From assembly GCA_000017645.1 (NCBI GenBank), contig CP000781.1:3893501-3957500 (forward strand): a DNA stretch of 64,000 nucleotides, written 5' to 3'. Below, one piece after another: positions 23,473-63,441 of this stretch. How positions within the stretch are numbered: the stretch's first letter is position 1; each line of letters opens with the position of its first letter. A program made the translations under genes and the position numbers. The notes under the pieces were generated by a model. That model did no database searches. It was not told the DNA's origin and worked only from the letters and a program-made list of their open reading frames with translations. Origin of the DNA: Xanthobacter autotrophicus Py2 (GTDB taxonomy: Bacteria; Pseudomonadota; Alphaproteobacteria; Rhizobiales; Xanthobacteraceae).

Positions 23473-25086
23473 ATGCGACCGCCCATGACCCGCTCGCCCA
23501 TGACCCGCTCCGACAACACCCCCTCCGTGACCAAGCGCCACCGCAAGGCTCTCCTGGCCGGCGTGGTCGGTCTCGCGCTCGCCGGCGTCGTGGCCGGCCA
23601 GTTCGTGCCGCCGCTGAACGGTCCCGTCGCCGCCCAGATCACCACCAGCCAGCCGGCCGGCACCTTCTCCTTCGCCGATATCGTCGAGAAGGTCTCGCCC
23701 GCCGTCGTCTCGGTGAAGGTGAAGAAGGATGCCGGCAACGAACAGATGGCCATGGGCGGCGATTTCGGCGGCAATGTTCCGCCCCAGATCGAGCAGTTCC
23801 TGAAGCGCTTCGGCTTCGGCGACGGCCAGGGCCCCATGGGTCCGGGTGGTCCCGGCGGCCCGGGCATGGGTCCGCGCGGCGGCCACGGTCCCAAGGGCGA
23901 GCGCCCGGTGGTGGGCCAGGGCTCCGGCTTCATCATCTCGGCTGACGGCTATGTGGTGACCAACAACCACGTGGTGGACGGCGCCGACGAGGTGGACGTG
24001 ACCACCACCGACGGCAAGGAATACCAGGCCAAGGTGATCGGCACCGATCCGCGCACCGACGTGGCCCTGCTGAAGATCGAGAACGTCACCAACCTGCCGT
24101 GGGTGAAGCTCGCGGACGGCGCCCCGCGCGTCGGTGACTGGGTGATCGCGGTGGGCAATCCCTTCGGCCTCGGCGGCACCGTGACCGCCGGCATCGTCTC
24201 GGCCCGTGGCCGCGACATTGGCTCGGGTCCCTATGACGACTTCATCCAGATCGACGCCCCCATCAACCGGGGCAATTCGGGCGGCCCGACCTTCTCGCTG
24301 AACGGCGAGGTGATCGGCATGAACACCGCCATCGTCTCCCCCTCGGGTGGCAACGTGGGCATTGCCTTCGCCATTCCGTCCGAGACCGTGAAGACGGTGG
24401 TGGCCCAGCTGCGCGACAAGGGCTCGGTGGCCCGCGGCTACATCGGCGTGCAGATCCAGCCGGTGACCGAGGACCTCGCCTCCGGCCTCGGCATCAAGGA
24501 CGCCGAGGGCGCCCTGGTGGCGCAGGTTCAGCCCAACACCCCCGGCGCCAAGGCAGGCCTGAAGGCCGGCGACGTGATCGTGAAGGTCAACAACGAGCCG
24601 ATCAAGGAAGCCCGCGATCTGACCCGCAAGGTGGGCATGATGAAGCCGGGTACCGAGATCAAGCTCTCGCTGATCCGCGATGCCAAGCCCATGGACCTGT
24701 CCCTGGTGCTCGACCAGCTGCCCAACGATCAGGTCGCCTCGCGCTCCGGTGCGCCCCAGCAGGGCGAGGATGACACCGCCGGCGCCACCAAGGACCTGCC
24801 GCGCCTCGGCCTCCAGCTCGCCCCGTCCAAGAGCGTTCAGGGCGCCGGCGGCGAAGGCGTGGTGGTGACCGGTGTGGAGCCCAACGGCCCCGCCGCCCAG
24901 CGCGGTTTCAAGACCGGCGACGTGATCCTGAAGGTGGGCGACAAAGCGGTCTCCACCCCGAAGGATGTGCGCGACGGCCTCGCCGCCGCCAAGGCCGACA
25001 ACCGCAAGGCGGTGCTCATCCAGGTGAAGAGCGGCGAGGGCGTGCGCTTCGTCGCCATCACCCTCGACGCCAAGGCCAAGGGCTGA
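23473..25086 (+). CDS. Periplasmic DegP/HtrA-type serine protease with two PDZ domains
   Basis: 537 residues. After a basic N-terminus and a hydrophobic signal segment (ALLAGVVGLALAGVVAG), the trypsin-like domain shows the triad His in VVTNNHVVDG, Asp in DPRTDVALLKI and Ser in GNSGGPTF (most homologues have GNSGGPLF). A Gly/Pro/Met-rich insertion (about 117-142) precedes the protease core. Two PDZ domains follow (GYIGVQIQPV onward, and after RLGLQLAPS). It degrades or refolds damaged envelope proteins. The ATG at 23473 is chosen; ATGs a few codons later are possible. A strong terminator follows. Confidence 0.93.
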   Translation: MRPPMTRSPMTRSDNTPSVTKRHRKALLAGVVGLALAGVVAGQFVPPLNGPVAAQITTSQPAGTFSFADIVEKVSPAVVSVKVKKDAGNEQMAMGGDFGGNVPPQIEQFLKRFGFGDGQGPMGPGGPGGPGMGPRGGHGPKGERPVVGQGSGFIISADGYVVTNNHVVDGADEVDVTTTDGKEYQAKVIGTDPRTDVALLKIENVTNLPWVKLADGAPRVGDWVIAVGNPFGLGGTVTAGIVSARGRDIGSGPYDDFIQIDAPINRGNSGGPTFSLNGEVIGMNTAIVSPSGGNVGIAFAIPSETVKTVVAQLRDKGSVARGYIGVQIQPVTEDLASGLGIKDAEGALVAQVQPNTPGAKAGLKAGDVIVKVNNEPIKEARDLTRKVGMMKPGTEIKLSLIRDAKPMDLSLVLDQLPNDQVASRSGAPQQGEDDTAGATKDLPRLGLQLAPSKSVQGAGGEGVVVTGVEPNGPAAQRGFKTGDVILKVGDKAVSTPKDVRDGLAAAKADNRKAVLIQVKSGEGVRFVAITLDAKAKG

Positions 25087-55329: not shown

Positions 55330-55503
55330 TGGCGGTCCTTGGGGGCGTTTCTCGGGGGGCGTTTCCCGGGGGCTTGCCTCGGCGCAGGCGGGCCTGCGCG
55401 TGACGCGGTCCTGGAGACGGATCGACCGATCGGGCGGCGCAGCCCCATCGGCACCCTGGTCAGGGGCCGCGCCTGGCGGCCCCTGCTTCACTCGGATGGG
55501 GCC

Positions 55504-59294: not shown

Positions 59295-59330
59295 ACAAAA
59301 GAGCCGGGGGAGGTCCCCCGGCTCTTTTGT
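59295..59330. terminator. Bidirectional intrinsic terminator
   Basis: A perfect 17-bp inverted repeat, ACAAAAGAGCCGGGGGA (59295-59311) and its complement (59314-59330), with a 2-nt centre. The A-run and T-run at the two ends allow termination in both directions, serving the CinA-like gene and the minus-strand sugar transferase. Confidence 0.93.
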
Positions 59331-59358
59331 CACTCAACCATCTGACTGTGGATCAGTC

Positions 59359-60844
59359 TCAGTAGGCGTCGTTGCGGAAGACCTCGATGAAGGTCTTCAG
59401 GATAATCTTGATGTCGAGCCAGATCGACCAGTTGTTGACGTACCAGAGGTCCATCTCGATCCGCCGTTCCATGAGCGAGATCTCGGAGGTCTCGCCGCGC
59501 AGGCCGTTGGCCTGGGCCCAGCCGGTGATGCCGGGCTTCACATGGTGGCGGAAGGCGTAGCCGGCGATCAGCTTGGAATACTCGTCGTCGTGGGCCATGG
59601 CGTGGGGCCGGGGGCCAACGATGGACATGTGCCCGAACAGCACGTTCAGCACCTGCGGCAGCTCGTCGAGGCTGGTGGCGCGCAGGAAGCGGCCGACCCG
59701 GGTCACGCGCTTGTCGTTGCGCTGGGCCTGCGTCACCTTCGCGCCGTCCTCCATCACCGACATGGAGCGGAACTTGTAGATGGTGAACTCGCGCCCGCCG
59801 AAGCCGTTGCGGCGCTGGCGGAAGATCACCGGCCCCTTGCTGTCCGACTTGATGCAGATGGCGATGATGGCGAACAGCGGCAGCAGCAGCGTCATGGCAA
59901 CGCCGGACACCGCGATGTCGAGTACCCGCTTCTGAGCCAGCTCGATCCGCGAGAGGGGCGCGCGCTGCACCTCGATGGCGACCGAGGAGCCGAAATCCAC
60001 CCGCGGGGCGTCGAGCAGCTCGTGAACAGCCTCGTCGGGCAGCAGCTTGACCGGCACCGGGAGCGCCCGCAGCCGCGCCCGCACCGCGTCGAGGCGCTCC
60101 AGGCTGCTCCAGGCTGCTCCAGGGCATGGCGATAACGATTTCCTCGATCCGCTGCTGGCGGGCGAACTGGATGGCGCTCTTGAGCGTATCGAGTTCATCC
60201 GTGCTGAGCGAACCGGACGCACCGGCCGGGGCGCCAGAGAAGCTGAACCGGCGCATCTCCCGCAGGCCGAGGCGCTCGAGGATTTCGGCGGGTACCACCT
60301 GGTCGAGCTGGGACACGTCGCCGATGAGGATGGAAGGCCGGCCACGCACTGCACCGGTTTCGACCGCGCGGCGCAGCCACACGCCCATGGCCCAATGGGA
60401 CGCAGGCACCGCCACGAAGCCGAGCGCGGCGAAGATGCCGGTGGAGAGGCGCGAGGTGTCGTCGCCCACCTTGAGGCAGAAGATCACGGTCGCCACGAAC
60501 AGGATGGTGAAGGTCCAGTTCACGAACGCCGCCCGCACCTGCTCCGTGGTCCGCGCCATCTGCCAGGGCTTGTACAGCCCCCGCGACGTGGTGATGAGCA
60601 CGAAGGTCACCGCCGCGAGGATGCCGATGCCCAGCGGACGCGTGAAATCGAAGCTCGACAGGGCGCCCGTCGAGGTCTGGCTCGTGGAAATGAGGTCCAC
60701 CAGCATGCTCAGGGCGAGCATGAGGACCGCATCGCACAAGATGAAGAGGGGCGGCATGGAGGCGTAGTCGATCACAGCCCGCTGGACCGGCCCCTGCACC
60801 TCGCCGACGCGCTCGACCCGCATATTGTCCGTGGATATCGACAT
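59359..60844 (-). pseudogene. Undecaprenyl-phosphate sugar transferase of exopolysaccharide synthesis, frameshifted
   Basis: The N-terminal frame starts at ATG 60844 (AAAGG site): four or five membrane spans (PLLFILCDAVLMLAL-like, GIGILAAVTFVLITTS, WTFTILFVATVIFCL) and a CoA-binding-like domain. The catalytic C-terminal half lies in another frame, ending at 59359: [60 protein letters not shown]. The break is at an exact 10-bp duplication (60101-60120). Removing one unit restores a 491-residue protein reading MPWSSLERLDAV. As it stands, about 241 native residues run into an unrelated frame to 59330. The enzyme would start exopolysaccharide repeat-unit assembly on the inner membrane. Confidence 0.9.
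60101..60120. repeat. Exact 10-bp tandem duplication causing the frameshift
   Basis: AGGCTGCTCC occurs twice in a row (60101-60110, 60111-60120), flanked by GCTCC before and AGG after, so the repeat tract spans 2.8 units. A single unit restores the reading frame of the sugar transferase. A direct repeat of this kind can be lost or gained by slippage. Confidence 0.92.
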
Positions 60845-61603
60845 CTGGCCTTTGATCCCTCGGATTGGAGTCGCACCGAATATCAAATGATATGGTGACA
60901 ATAGCATCCCGAATGCTGCGATGCAAGCTAGTATAAAAATGCATACCTTTTGATTTAATATGTAATAAATTTGTTAAGATACCATCTTGTGGCCTGTTAT
61001 ATCGAAACATAACGTTGGAGTGTCGGTCGATTGGTTCGGAATTTGGAAGAATAGGTCAAGAACAATTGGATTTTGCGTTCATGTCATCGACCTGATTTCG
61101 CATATTGCGACGCACTTTTCCTTGATAAAGTCACGGTATCAAAGGACGGTGCTCAAGGCATGGGCAATGCTGCATTGCGACAAAATTTACCTGCTGCATA
61201 TCGCAGCACCTGCGATCTGCGACAAAATGCCAGGGAATATGTGTGGCGCGGTATGATTTACCCGCTTGCGCAGCTTGGGCATGCTGCAACACGGCAATTT
61301 AGGCGGCAAAGCAGGCGGGTCGCCTGCTCGTCGCGCATGGTGGCCGGAGAATTGTAATCCGGCTGCGGTATTAAATTACCGCGCCATTCGGCCCGTCACG
61401 CCCCGTTCCGGCTACCGGGAGTAGGCGACCTAGCCGGGTGTGCGGAGAAGGGGCCGTGCCGGATCGGCGGGCGAGACGACGGCGAGACTCGGGCTTCGCA
61501 TCAGGCCATCGACAAGGGCAGCGCGAGCCGTCTAGGAACATGCCGGGCCGGTCGTAACGGAAGCCGGGCCTGGCGCGATCCTCGGCAGCATCGGTGGCGA
61601 CTT
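60845..61603. promoter_or_regulatory. AT-rich intergenic region upstream of the sugar transferase
   Basis: About 760 bp without a credible gene, of which 60880-61260 is strikingly AT-rich for this genome. It holds a palindrome ATATCAAATGATAT (60880-60893) 36 bp from the sugar transferase start, TTGCGAC at 61105-61111 and 61175-61181, and a direct repeat TGCGACAAAAT at 61176-61186 and 61218-61228. Further on are small inverted repeats GCAGGCG/CGCCTGC (61311-61327) and GCGGTA/TACCGC (61365-61382). It probably contains the regulated promoter of the exopolysaccharide gene. The only open frames use TTG starts and look non-coding. Confidence 0.55.
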
Positions 61604-62317
61604 ATGGATAAAAGCTACAAGATCCCGCTTCTGGCCTCGCTCAAATGGTCGTTCCAGTGGGCCGTCGCGGTGGTCCTTCGGCATCAGAAGACAACCGCCG
61701 CCTATGTCGCGGCAGGTGTGGTGGCGGGGCTGCTGGCCTCGTCCGGCTTGGGCGGGCTGCTGCTGCTGGTCTACTCGCTGGCGAGCATCCCGCTGGCGCT
61801 CCTCACCCACGCCGAGGTGCTGCGCGGTCCGTCGGCCCTTGATGCCCAGACCCTGGGGCAAGGGCCGGGACGGATGGTCGGCTATCTCATCGACACCATT
61901 CTCATCGGCCTGGCGGCGGGCTTGAGCGCGCTGGTGCCGATCTTCGCCATCGCCATGCTCAGCGGGCCGGCGTCGATGGGCAGTGGAGTGGACCTGGTGC
62001 TGGCCTTCCTCGTCGTCACCGTTGTGGCGGTGGTCGCGTCCCGGCCGGCGCTGCGTCTGCCGTCGCGGGTCCTGGGCGATCCGATCTCCTGGTCGCAGGC
62101 CTGGCGGCTTGGTCAGGGCAACACGCTTGCGCTGGTCCTGGGCCCATTCCTGATCTCAGTGCCGGTCCTGATCGTCGAGCAGATCGTGCAGCTCCTGGTA
62201 CCGGAGACGCTGTCCGACGTGGTGAGCATGGTGCTGCTGCCGGCCCAGATCGTGCTCACCTGTGCCTTCCTCTCTGTTGCCTACGGCCAGCTGCGGCGGG
62301 CGAATCCGGAACTTTGA
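61604..62317 (+). CDS. Hypothetical multi-pass membrane protein
   Basis: 237 residues, almost entirely hydrophobic, with about five or six membrane spans (AAYVAAGVVAGLLASSGLGG, LLLLVYSLASIPLALL, DTILIGLAAGLSALVPIFAIAML, VDLVLAFLVVTVVAVVA, LALVLGPFLISVPVLIV, and a last one). It starts with the polar MDKSYKIPLLASLKWSF. I recognise no family with certainty; the spacing recalls uncharacterised DUF6159- or YciC-like integral membrane proteins, but that is only an impression. It faces away from the sugar transferase. Confidence 0.75.
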   Translation: MDKSYKIPLLASLKWSFQWAVAVVLRHQKTTAAYVAAGVVAGLLASSGLGGLLLLVYSLASIPLALLTHAEVLRGPSALDAQTLGQGPGRMVGYLIDTILIGLAAGLSALVPIFAIAMLSGPASMGSGVDLVLAFLVVTVVAVVASRPALRLPSRVLGDPISWSQAWRLGQGNTLALVLGPFLISVPVLIVEQIVQLLVPETLSDVVSMVLLPAQIVLTCAFLSVAYGQLRRANPEL

Positions 62318-62411: not shown

Positions 62412-63416
62412 ATGGAGCCGCCTTGTTCGGATCTGCCCCAGATGAATGTCCCGGCCGGAATCGGCCTGCAAATCGCCGCCACCTTCTTCTTCGCCGTCAT
62501 GTCCGCGCTCGTGCGGATGGTGGCCGACGAGGTGCCGAGTGGCGAGATCGTCTTCGCCCGCAGCTTCATCGGGCTCCTGCCCGTGGTGGTCTGGCTCGCC
62601 TGGAGCGGGCGAATGACCGGCGCCCTCGTCACCCGGCAGCCGTTCGGCCACGTGGTGCGGGGCCTCGTAGGCGTGAGCGCCATGTGGCTCAGCTTTGCCG
62701 CGCTGGCCTTCATCCCGCTGGCGGAGGCGGTGGCCTTTTCCTATGCCACGCCTCTGGTGGCGGTGGTGCTGGCGGCGGTGCTGCTGGGCGAGCGGGTGCC
62801 GGCCTATCGCTGGCTCGTTCTTGCCATTGGCATGGGTGGCATCGTGCTCATGCTGTGGCCGTCGTTTTCCCACGCCTCGGTGGGGTCGGGGCCGGGACCG
62901 CTGATCGGCGCGGGACTGGCGCTGGCCGGCGCGGTGGGGGCGGGCTTCGCCATTACCCAGGTGCGCCATCTCACCCGGACCGAGACCAGTGAGGCCATTG
63001 TCTTCTACTTCTCGCTGGTGGCTTCCGTGGCGGGCCTCGCCACGCTGCCGCTCGGCTGGGTGATGCCGGACGGGCGGGTCGCGCTCATCCTCGCCGGCAT
63101 GGGGCTGGCGGGCGGCATCGGGCAGATCTGCGTGACATCGGCCATCCGCCATGCTCCGGCGTCGGTGGTCGCACCGCTCAATTATGCCACGCTGATATGG
63201 GCCACCGTGCTCGGCATCATCCTGTTCGGGGAATGGCCGGCGCCCCTTGTGATCGCGGGCGCGATGGTGGTGATCGTGGCCGGGCTGGTCCTGATCTGGC
63301 GCGAGCGCAGGCCGGCTCCGCGGATCGTGGCGTCGCGGCCTGAACCTCCGGTCGGGGGCTGCGCTTCTGCAGACGACCCGGGGGAGGCGCCCCCCGTGCA
63401 GGACGATGCTGCGTGA
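62412..63416 (+). CDS. EamA-family (DMT superfamily) transporter
   Basis: 334 residues with ten predicted membrane spans in two EamA halves. The first half shows GIGLQIAATFFFAVMSALVR, AEAVAFSYATPLVAVVLAAV and LLGERVPAYRW; the second ends with APLNYATLIWATVLGIILFG and EWPAPLVIAGAMVVIVAGL. Family members export or import metabolites such as amino acids or S-adenosylmethionine; the substrate is not predictable. The start may be ATG 62412 or ATG 62442. The cytoplasmic tail is Pro/Asp-rich. Confidence 0.88.
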   Translation: MEPPCSDLPQMNVPAGIGLQIAATFFFAVMSALVRMVADEVPSGEIVFARSFIGLLPVVVWLAWSGRMTGALVTRQPFGHVVRGLVGVSAMWLSFAALAFIPLAEAVAFSYATPLVAVVLAAVLLGERVPAYRWLVLAIGMGGIVLMLWPSFSHASVGSGPGPLIGAGLALAGAVGAGFAITQVRHLTRTETSEAIVFYFSLVASVAGLATLPLGWVMPDGRVALILAGMGLAGGIGQICVTSAIRHAPASVVAPLNYATLIWATVLGIILFGEWPAPLVIAGAMVVIVAGLVLIWRERRPAPRIVASRPEPPVGGCASADDPGEAPPVQDDAA

Positions 63417-63441
63417 ATTGGCGGCGTAAATTGGCGGCGTG
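63416..63441. repeat. 13-bp tandem repeat after the EamA gene
   Basis: AATTGGCGGCGTA and AATTGGCGGCGTG lie back to back, starting on the last base of the EamA stop codon. No function is evident. Confidence 0.6.

Follow-up and report, generated by a model that had tools for sequence, protein, structure and literature searches.

Does a 10-bp tandem duplication in a sugar transferase gene of Xanthobacter autotrophicus Py2 serve as a reversible switch, or has it simply broken the gene? The gene lies on the reverse strand, at 59359-60844 of the window, by which we mean the whole 64,000-nucleotide stretch analyzed here. The original prediction, made from the letters of this window, held that the duplication inactivates an exopolysaccharide sugar transferase and that it could be either an on/off switch for slime production or a loss selected in the laboratory. 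In our view the best explanation, with a probability of roughly 75%, is that slippage on a pre-existing template repeat gave rise to a very recent loss-of-function allele of an orphan WcaJ-type gene.

A tandem duplication parts the two domains of the transferase

On the forward strand, AGGCTGCTCC occurs twice in tandem, at 60101-60110 and 60111-60120. Sequence inspection, repeat finding and the comparison with relatives delimit a perfect period-10 direct repeat at 60096-60123, containing 2.8 copies of AGGCTGCTCC in phase; Tandem Repeats Finder reports 3.3 copies at 60092-60123, adding an imperfect copy to the perfect run. The genome contains a single copy of a 25-base core of the repeat. Chance expectation was estimated from 15 third-order Markov resamplings of the window. 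Exact tandem duplications with a period of at least 10 numbered 2 in the window versus a resampled mean of 0.13, and those with a period of at least 7 numbered 12 versus a mean of 11.5. Only the longer duplications (period at least 10), and not those with a period of at least 7, are above chance expectation. A chance match in G+C-rich DNA is ruled out by the resampling combined with the comparison of relatives described below, the latter being the stronger evidence for a duplication.

The repeat disrupts a gene for an undecaprenyl-phosphate glucose phosphotransferase of the WcaJ type, a large monotopic phosphoglycosyl transferase, as judged from the sequence and from the match of the intact orthologue of Xanthobacter oligotrophicus 29k to TIGR03023. 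From the ATG at 60844 to the stop codon ending at 59359 the gene spans 1486 bp. Subtraction of one 10-bp unit leaves 1476 bp, in agreement with the reconstructed length proposed earlier. The 29k orthologue measures 1479 bp from the same start, and the difference is explained by another, independent event, a 3-bp deletion after 60217.

Two stretches of the Py2 gene, both on the reverse strand, keep the original frame. The N-terminal part (60116-60844), defined by domain match, protein alignment and profile scores, contains most of CoA_binding_3 (PF13727), and the C-terminal catalytic part (59359-60084) consists of 241 residues with PF02397, the protein being the same as in 29k and DSM 432. The frame break is located in the last portion of the PF13727 match, which covers profile positions 3-175 in 29k and only 3-153 in the shifted frame. 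The assertion that the shifted frame meets no early stop was borne out, as this frame is open to 59330. Counted from an upstream ATG, it forms an ORF of 525 amino acids (59330-60907, reverse strand; ORF list and Pfam), composed of the N-terminal half of the enzyme and a tail without Pfam match; PF13727 is matched and PF02397 is not. The catalytic domain is found in a second ORF of 331 amino acids (59359-60354, reverse strand; ORF list and Pfam), in which PF02397 follows an out-of-frame leader and which is a possible but weakly supported residual product.

Among the orthologues, that of 29k was the one scored against TIGR03023, and its 445.4 bits lie over the cut-off of 410.75 bits. Neither piece of the Py2 gene reaches this value, with 372.6 bits for the catalytic and 56.9 bits for the N-terminal part. 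Likewise, PF13727 followed by PF02397 in one protein, the architecture of large monotopic phosphoglycosyl transferases, is present in the 29k orthologue; in the Py2 allele each domain is in a frame of its own. In the available part of PMC10942596, this architecture is assigned to the large monotopic enzymes and the N-terminal domain is given a role in nucleotide sensing. By its TIGR03023 score and its domains, the 29k orthologue is predicted to be a WcaJ-type undecaprenyl-phosphate glucose phosphotransferase. Solved relatives recognized by sequence are WbaP and PglC-like diacetylbacillosaminyl-phosphate transferases, to which the catalytic part was matched (7 sequences). The predicted inactivation can be upheld insofar as the duplication breaks the frame of a polysaccharide-initiating sugar transferase, but not as a complete inactivation, since the catalytic domain is still open in the 331-amino-acid ORF.

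The extra unit is private to Py2 among the sampled relatives

Orthologues, defined as matches covering half of the gene or more, were searched for in 14 genomes of the genus and are present in 12, Py2 included (11 of the 13 others). In G100 and G107 the match is limited to approximately 300 bases at 69-71% and probably arises via a paralogue. These two genomes seem to be without an orthologue, and the orphan transferase gene may therefore be dispensable in the genus. By transferase gene, the closest named relatives are X. oligotrophicus 29k, which is the nearest, X. autotrophicus DSM 432, AM5 and AM3, and the assembly HJP_bin50; at the loci that were compared, these records agree at 100% with five of the genomes of the genus sample.

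The reading frame is uninterrupted at and around the site in all 11 other orthologues, ten of which were read by protein alignment and the eleventh (G109) separately; in G108 the frame is open for 527 codons. The extra unit is absent from all seven orthologues that were aligned across the repeat at the nucleotide level, and the remaining four were judged from their open frame and protein sequence. Because all 11 orthologues read through the site, the two-unit form is private to Py2 within the sample. A two-unit form common to relatives, which the original prediction had named as speaking against it, was thus looked for, and the relatives proved to have one unit wherever nucleotides were aligned. 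The exact 10-bp tandem duplication itself is confirmed, and we regard this observation as right and well supported. The repeat site was compared within the genus; a wider family search, which covered presence of the catalytic part, found a match in 91 of 100 genomes, including Py2.

General breakage of the region is ruled out by the seven neighbouring genes, each of which matches its 29k counterpart over the full length and in a single frame. The gene order is the same in 29k, and the neighbours comprise Alpha-E, circularly permuted ATP-grasp, molybdopterin-binding, EamA and oxidoreductase genes and one without Pfam match. The DNA alignment sets a 13-bp insertion over the last bases of the EamA gene, both proteins (Py2 and 29k) ending in DDAA. 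Upstream of the disrupted gene, base composition reveals an A+T-rich region (60845-61300) in which G+C falls to 0.37, the gene itself having about 0.57-0.73 in 200-base windows; that this stretch is a control region is a guess. Nearby, a 237-amino-acid ORF (61604-62317, forward strand) is hydrophobic by eye and without Pfam match. The 29k counterpart shares 93% identity along the entire ORF and likewise adjoins the transferase gene.

As a test for a burst of like duplications in Py2, three other tandem repeats of the window were inspected, and they give such a burst no support. The repeats at 55341-55376 (14-bp unit) and 63408-63440 (13-bp unit) lie between genes or at gene ends and are longer than in 29k; these stretches vary in length among the aligned relatives and are therefore little informative on this point. 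Separately, a 15-bp exact tandem duplication around an ATG (23480-23510) is shared with DSM 432 (L120) and absent from L121, L122 and L123, an instance of unit-number variation close to a possible start codon.

Origin and age of the lesion

In 29k, the coding strand at the site reads CCTGGAGC-AG-CCTGGAGC, an 8-bp direct repeat with a 10-bp period that amounts to 1.8 unit copies. AM5, DSM 432 and AM3 have weaker, diverged versions, and among the seven relatives aligned at the nucleotide level the 8-bp template is restricted to 29k, along with Py2 itself. Given this divergence, the slippage-prone form seems to belong specifically to the lineage of 29k and Py2. Replication slippage on such a pre-existing direct repeat would add one 10-bp unit and raise the copy number from 1.8 to 2.8. 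The ensuing frame shift would part a probably regulatory N-terminal portion from the catalytic portion, so that no full-length enzyme would be made. From the sequence we infer both slippage as the cause and the absence of enzyme activity. The allele would then represent a very recent loss of function in one Xanthobacter strain, which may have spread through drift or laboratory growth; laboratory selection of the loss is possible. The extra unit might be lost now and then, at low frequency, and an uninterrupted paralogue probably still supplies at least one polysaccharide pathway.

A very young loss is suggested by the 241 residues downstream of the lesion, which show no amino-acid change relative to either 29k or DSM 432 despite 23 and 39 synonymous differences, respectively. 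The same observation rules out a long-dead pseudogene. Compared with AM5, there are 4 amino-acid-changing and 30 synonymous differences. The differences were polarized by branch with AM5, DSM 432 and AM3 as outgroups. On the Py2 branch, the 8 changes that could be resolved in the catalytic part are all synonymous, a further 7 differences from 29k staying unassigned, and the N-terminal part has 11 synonymous and 4 amino-acid changes (23 unresolved). The corresponding numbers for the 29k branch are 8 synonymous and 0 amino-acid changes in the catalytic part, and 8 and 1 in the N-terminal part. The contrast in amino-acid versus synonymous changes between the N-terminal parts of Py2 (4/11) and 29k (1/8) is not significant (P = 0.61).

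Under free evolution, 8 synonymous changes out of 8 would be expected with a probability between 1.6e-5 and 9.3e-5, depending on the mutation bias tried, and the neutral share of the Py2 branch is at most 0.13-0.17, which is a rough bound. Such a pattern is improbable for a freely evolving sequence; hence, it points to one of four things: a recent lesion, a lesion that is often reversed, a catalytic part that is still used, or an erroneous sequence. A recent lesion is the simplest of these four readings. Signs of purifying selection in the catalytic part would, however, also be seen if this part is still made or if the allele often flips back.

Alternative explanations

The rival readings partly overlap, so that their probabilities are not required to add up to one. 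In the first, selection has made the repeat a phase-variation switch that frequently gains and loses a unit, resulting in populations mixed for surface polysaccharide. The perfect repeat, the frame-breaking unit length and the undecayed catalytic half fit frequent reversal, and in the available portions of PMC4243769 and PMC4022640 phase variation of pneumococci is reported to be under the control of duplications in cap8E and tts. However, the repeat has two units only, and its template is confined to the Py2 and 29k pair among the aligned relatives. Moreover, unit number, which varies among relatives at a phase-variable locus, is constant across the 11 orthologues (7 at the nucleotide level), two units occurring in Py2 only. 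For a related gene, wchA, the available part of PMC4022640 lists a 9-bp tandem repeat among many other mutations and puts the reversion expected for a 9-bp insertion at no more than about 1e-5. On these grounds the on/off switch put forward originally is not supported, and we consider a selected switch unlikely. By analogy, a two-unit 10-bp repeat could lose a copy occasionally, like any such duplication; we see no evidence of an evolved switch. A bolder version, in which a working reversible switch turns off the full-length, nucleotide-regulated transferase in part of the population and the 8-bp template of 29k is the first stage of an evolving switch, appears very improbable. If it were true, cells would commit undecaprenyl phosphate to the polysaccharide of the paralogue alone or share it between two.

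A second possibility is that the duplication arose as an error of sequencing or assembly, or by mutation in a cloned fragment, and that the living strain carries a single unit. Assembly is known to be fragile at short tandem repeats, and the catalytic half looks fully constrained. On the other hand, the 28-bp repeat is presumably much shorter than the reads, if the genome was sequenced by the Sanger method, which makes an assembly error unlikely, and the seven neighbouring genes match 29k full-length in one frame. We therefore regard an error as quite unlikely.

Finally, the catalytic domain could still be translated from an internal start and work alone in the manner of the small monotopic transferases, without the N-terminal control domain. 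This would agree with the 331-amino-acid ORF carrying PF02397 and with the absence of amino-acid changes relative to 29k in its 241 catalytic residues. Additionally, the available part of PMC10942596 describes the small family members as the catalytic core alone and cites a title according to which Salmonella WbaP needs no more than its C-terminal domain for catalysis. However, the listed ATG and GTG candidates before the domain are, by eye, without a well-spaced ribosome-binding site: GGAG is found 12 bases before GTG 60084, and no obvious site precedes ATG 60198. Moreover, ribosomes in the shifted frame do not stop near the candidate starts, so coupled restart is not expected. We hold an active internal product to be very unlikely, and retain a recent loss by slippage as the preferred reading.

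A second transferase and the question of slime

A profile search of the genome (5,625,098 bases on two contigs, the larger of 5,308,934) yielded two PF02397 matches. The second transferase, at 2.207 Mb, has an uninterrupted 501-codon frame with both PF13727 and PF02397, and its catalytic part is 46% identical to that of the orphan transferase. It is accompanied by polysaccharide genes (L117, 9168-19885): the eight neighbouring ORFs encode two FkbM-domain proteins, an acyltransferase, a WecG-type glycosyltransferase, a polysaccharide export protein, a GH18 protein, a protein with a Wzy_C match below its cut-off and one without match. No polysaccharide genes were seen among the neighbours examined beside the disrupted gene. 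On these two grounds, the suggested loss of slime is not supported. With an uninterrupted paralogue in the genome and redundancy known from Caulobacter, it does not follow that slime is off. In a search of mostly open literature on exopolysaccharide and slime in Xanthobacter and on the Py2 genome, no title among the matches listed concerned slime in strain Py2, which does not prove that such work is absent.

If the allele is real, then of the two transferases of this family that initiate polysaccharides Py2 lacks one whose gene its nearest relatives retain, a difference to bear in mind when surface, flocculation or biofilm traits are compared between strains. The allele also offers a clean example of a young slippage lesion, for which 29k, the nearest relative, still displays the template repeat. 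The gene was lost by an ordinary mechanism, in a way already known from other bacteria, and general understanding is left unchanged.

Comparison with known systems

With WcaJ as defined by TIGR03023, the locus shares an orthologue in 29k that passes the equivalog cut-off and has both domains; it differs in that the Py2 copy is split by a frame shift and lies among examined neighbours devoid of polysaccharide genes. Like Caulobacter, Py2 is an alphaproteobacterium with more than one initiating transferase. HfsE, PssY and PssZ are described as redundant in the available part of PMC11340318, and their triple deletion abolishes the holdfast. Redundancy is thus backed there by deletion and would here be deduced from gene content, the enzymes being likened as redundant initiators and not as orthologues.

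The closest parallel to the lesion itself is pneumococcal cap8E, which we take to belong to PF02397. There, too, the enzyme is one with which synthesis of a surface polysaccharide begins, a glucosyl-1-phosphate transferase, and it is inactivated by a tandem duplication. Duplications in cap8E (wchA), tts and the type 3 capsule locus are attributed to Waite et al. (2001, 2003) in the accessible parts of PMC4243769 and PMC4022640, and are described as reversible. In contrast to these pneumococcal duplications, for which phase variation has been reported, the Xanthobacter allele is described here at the level of its sequence, and it occurs in an unrelated host that has an uninterrupted paralogue.
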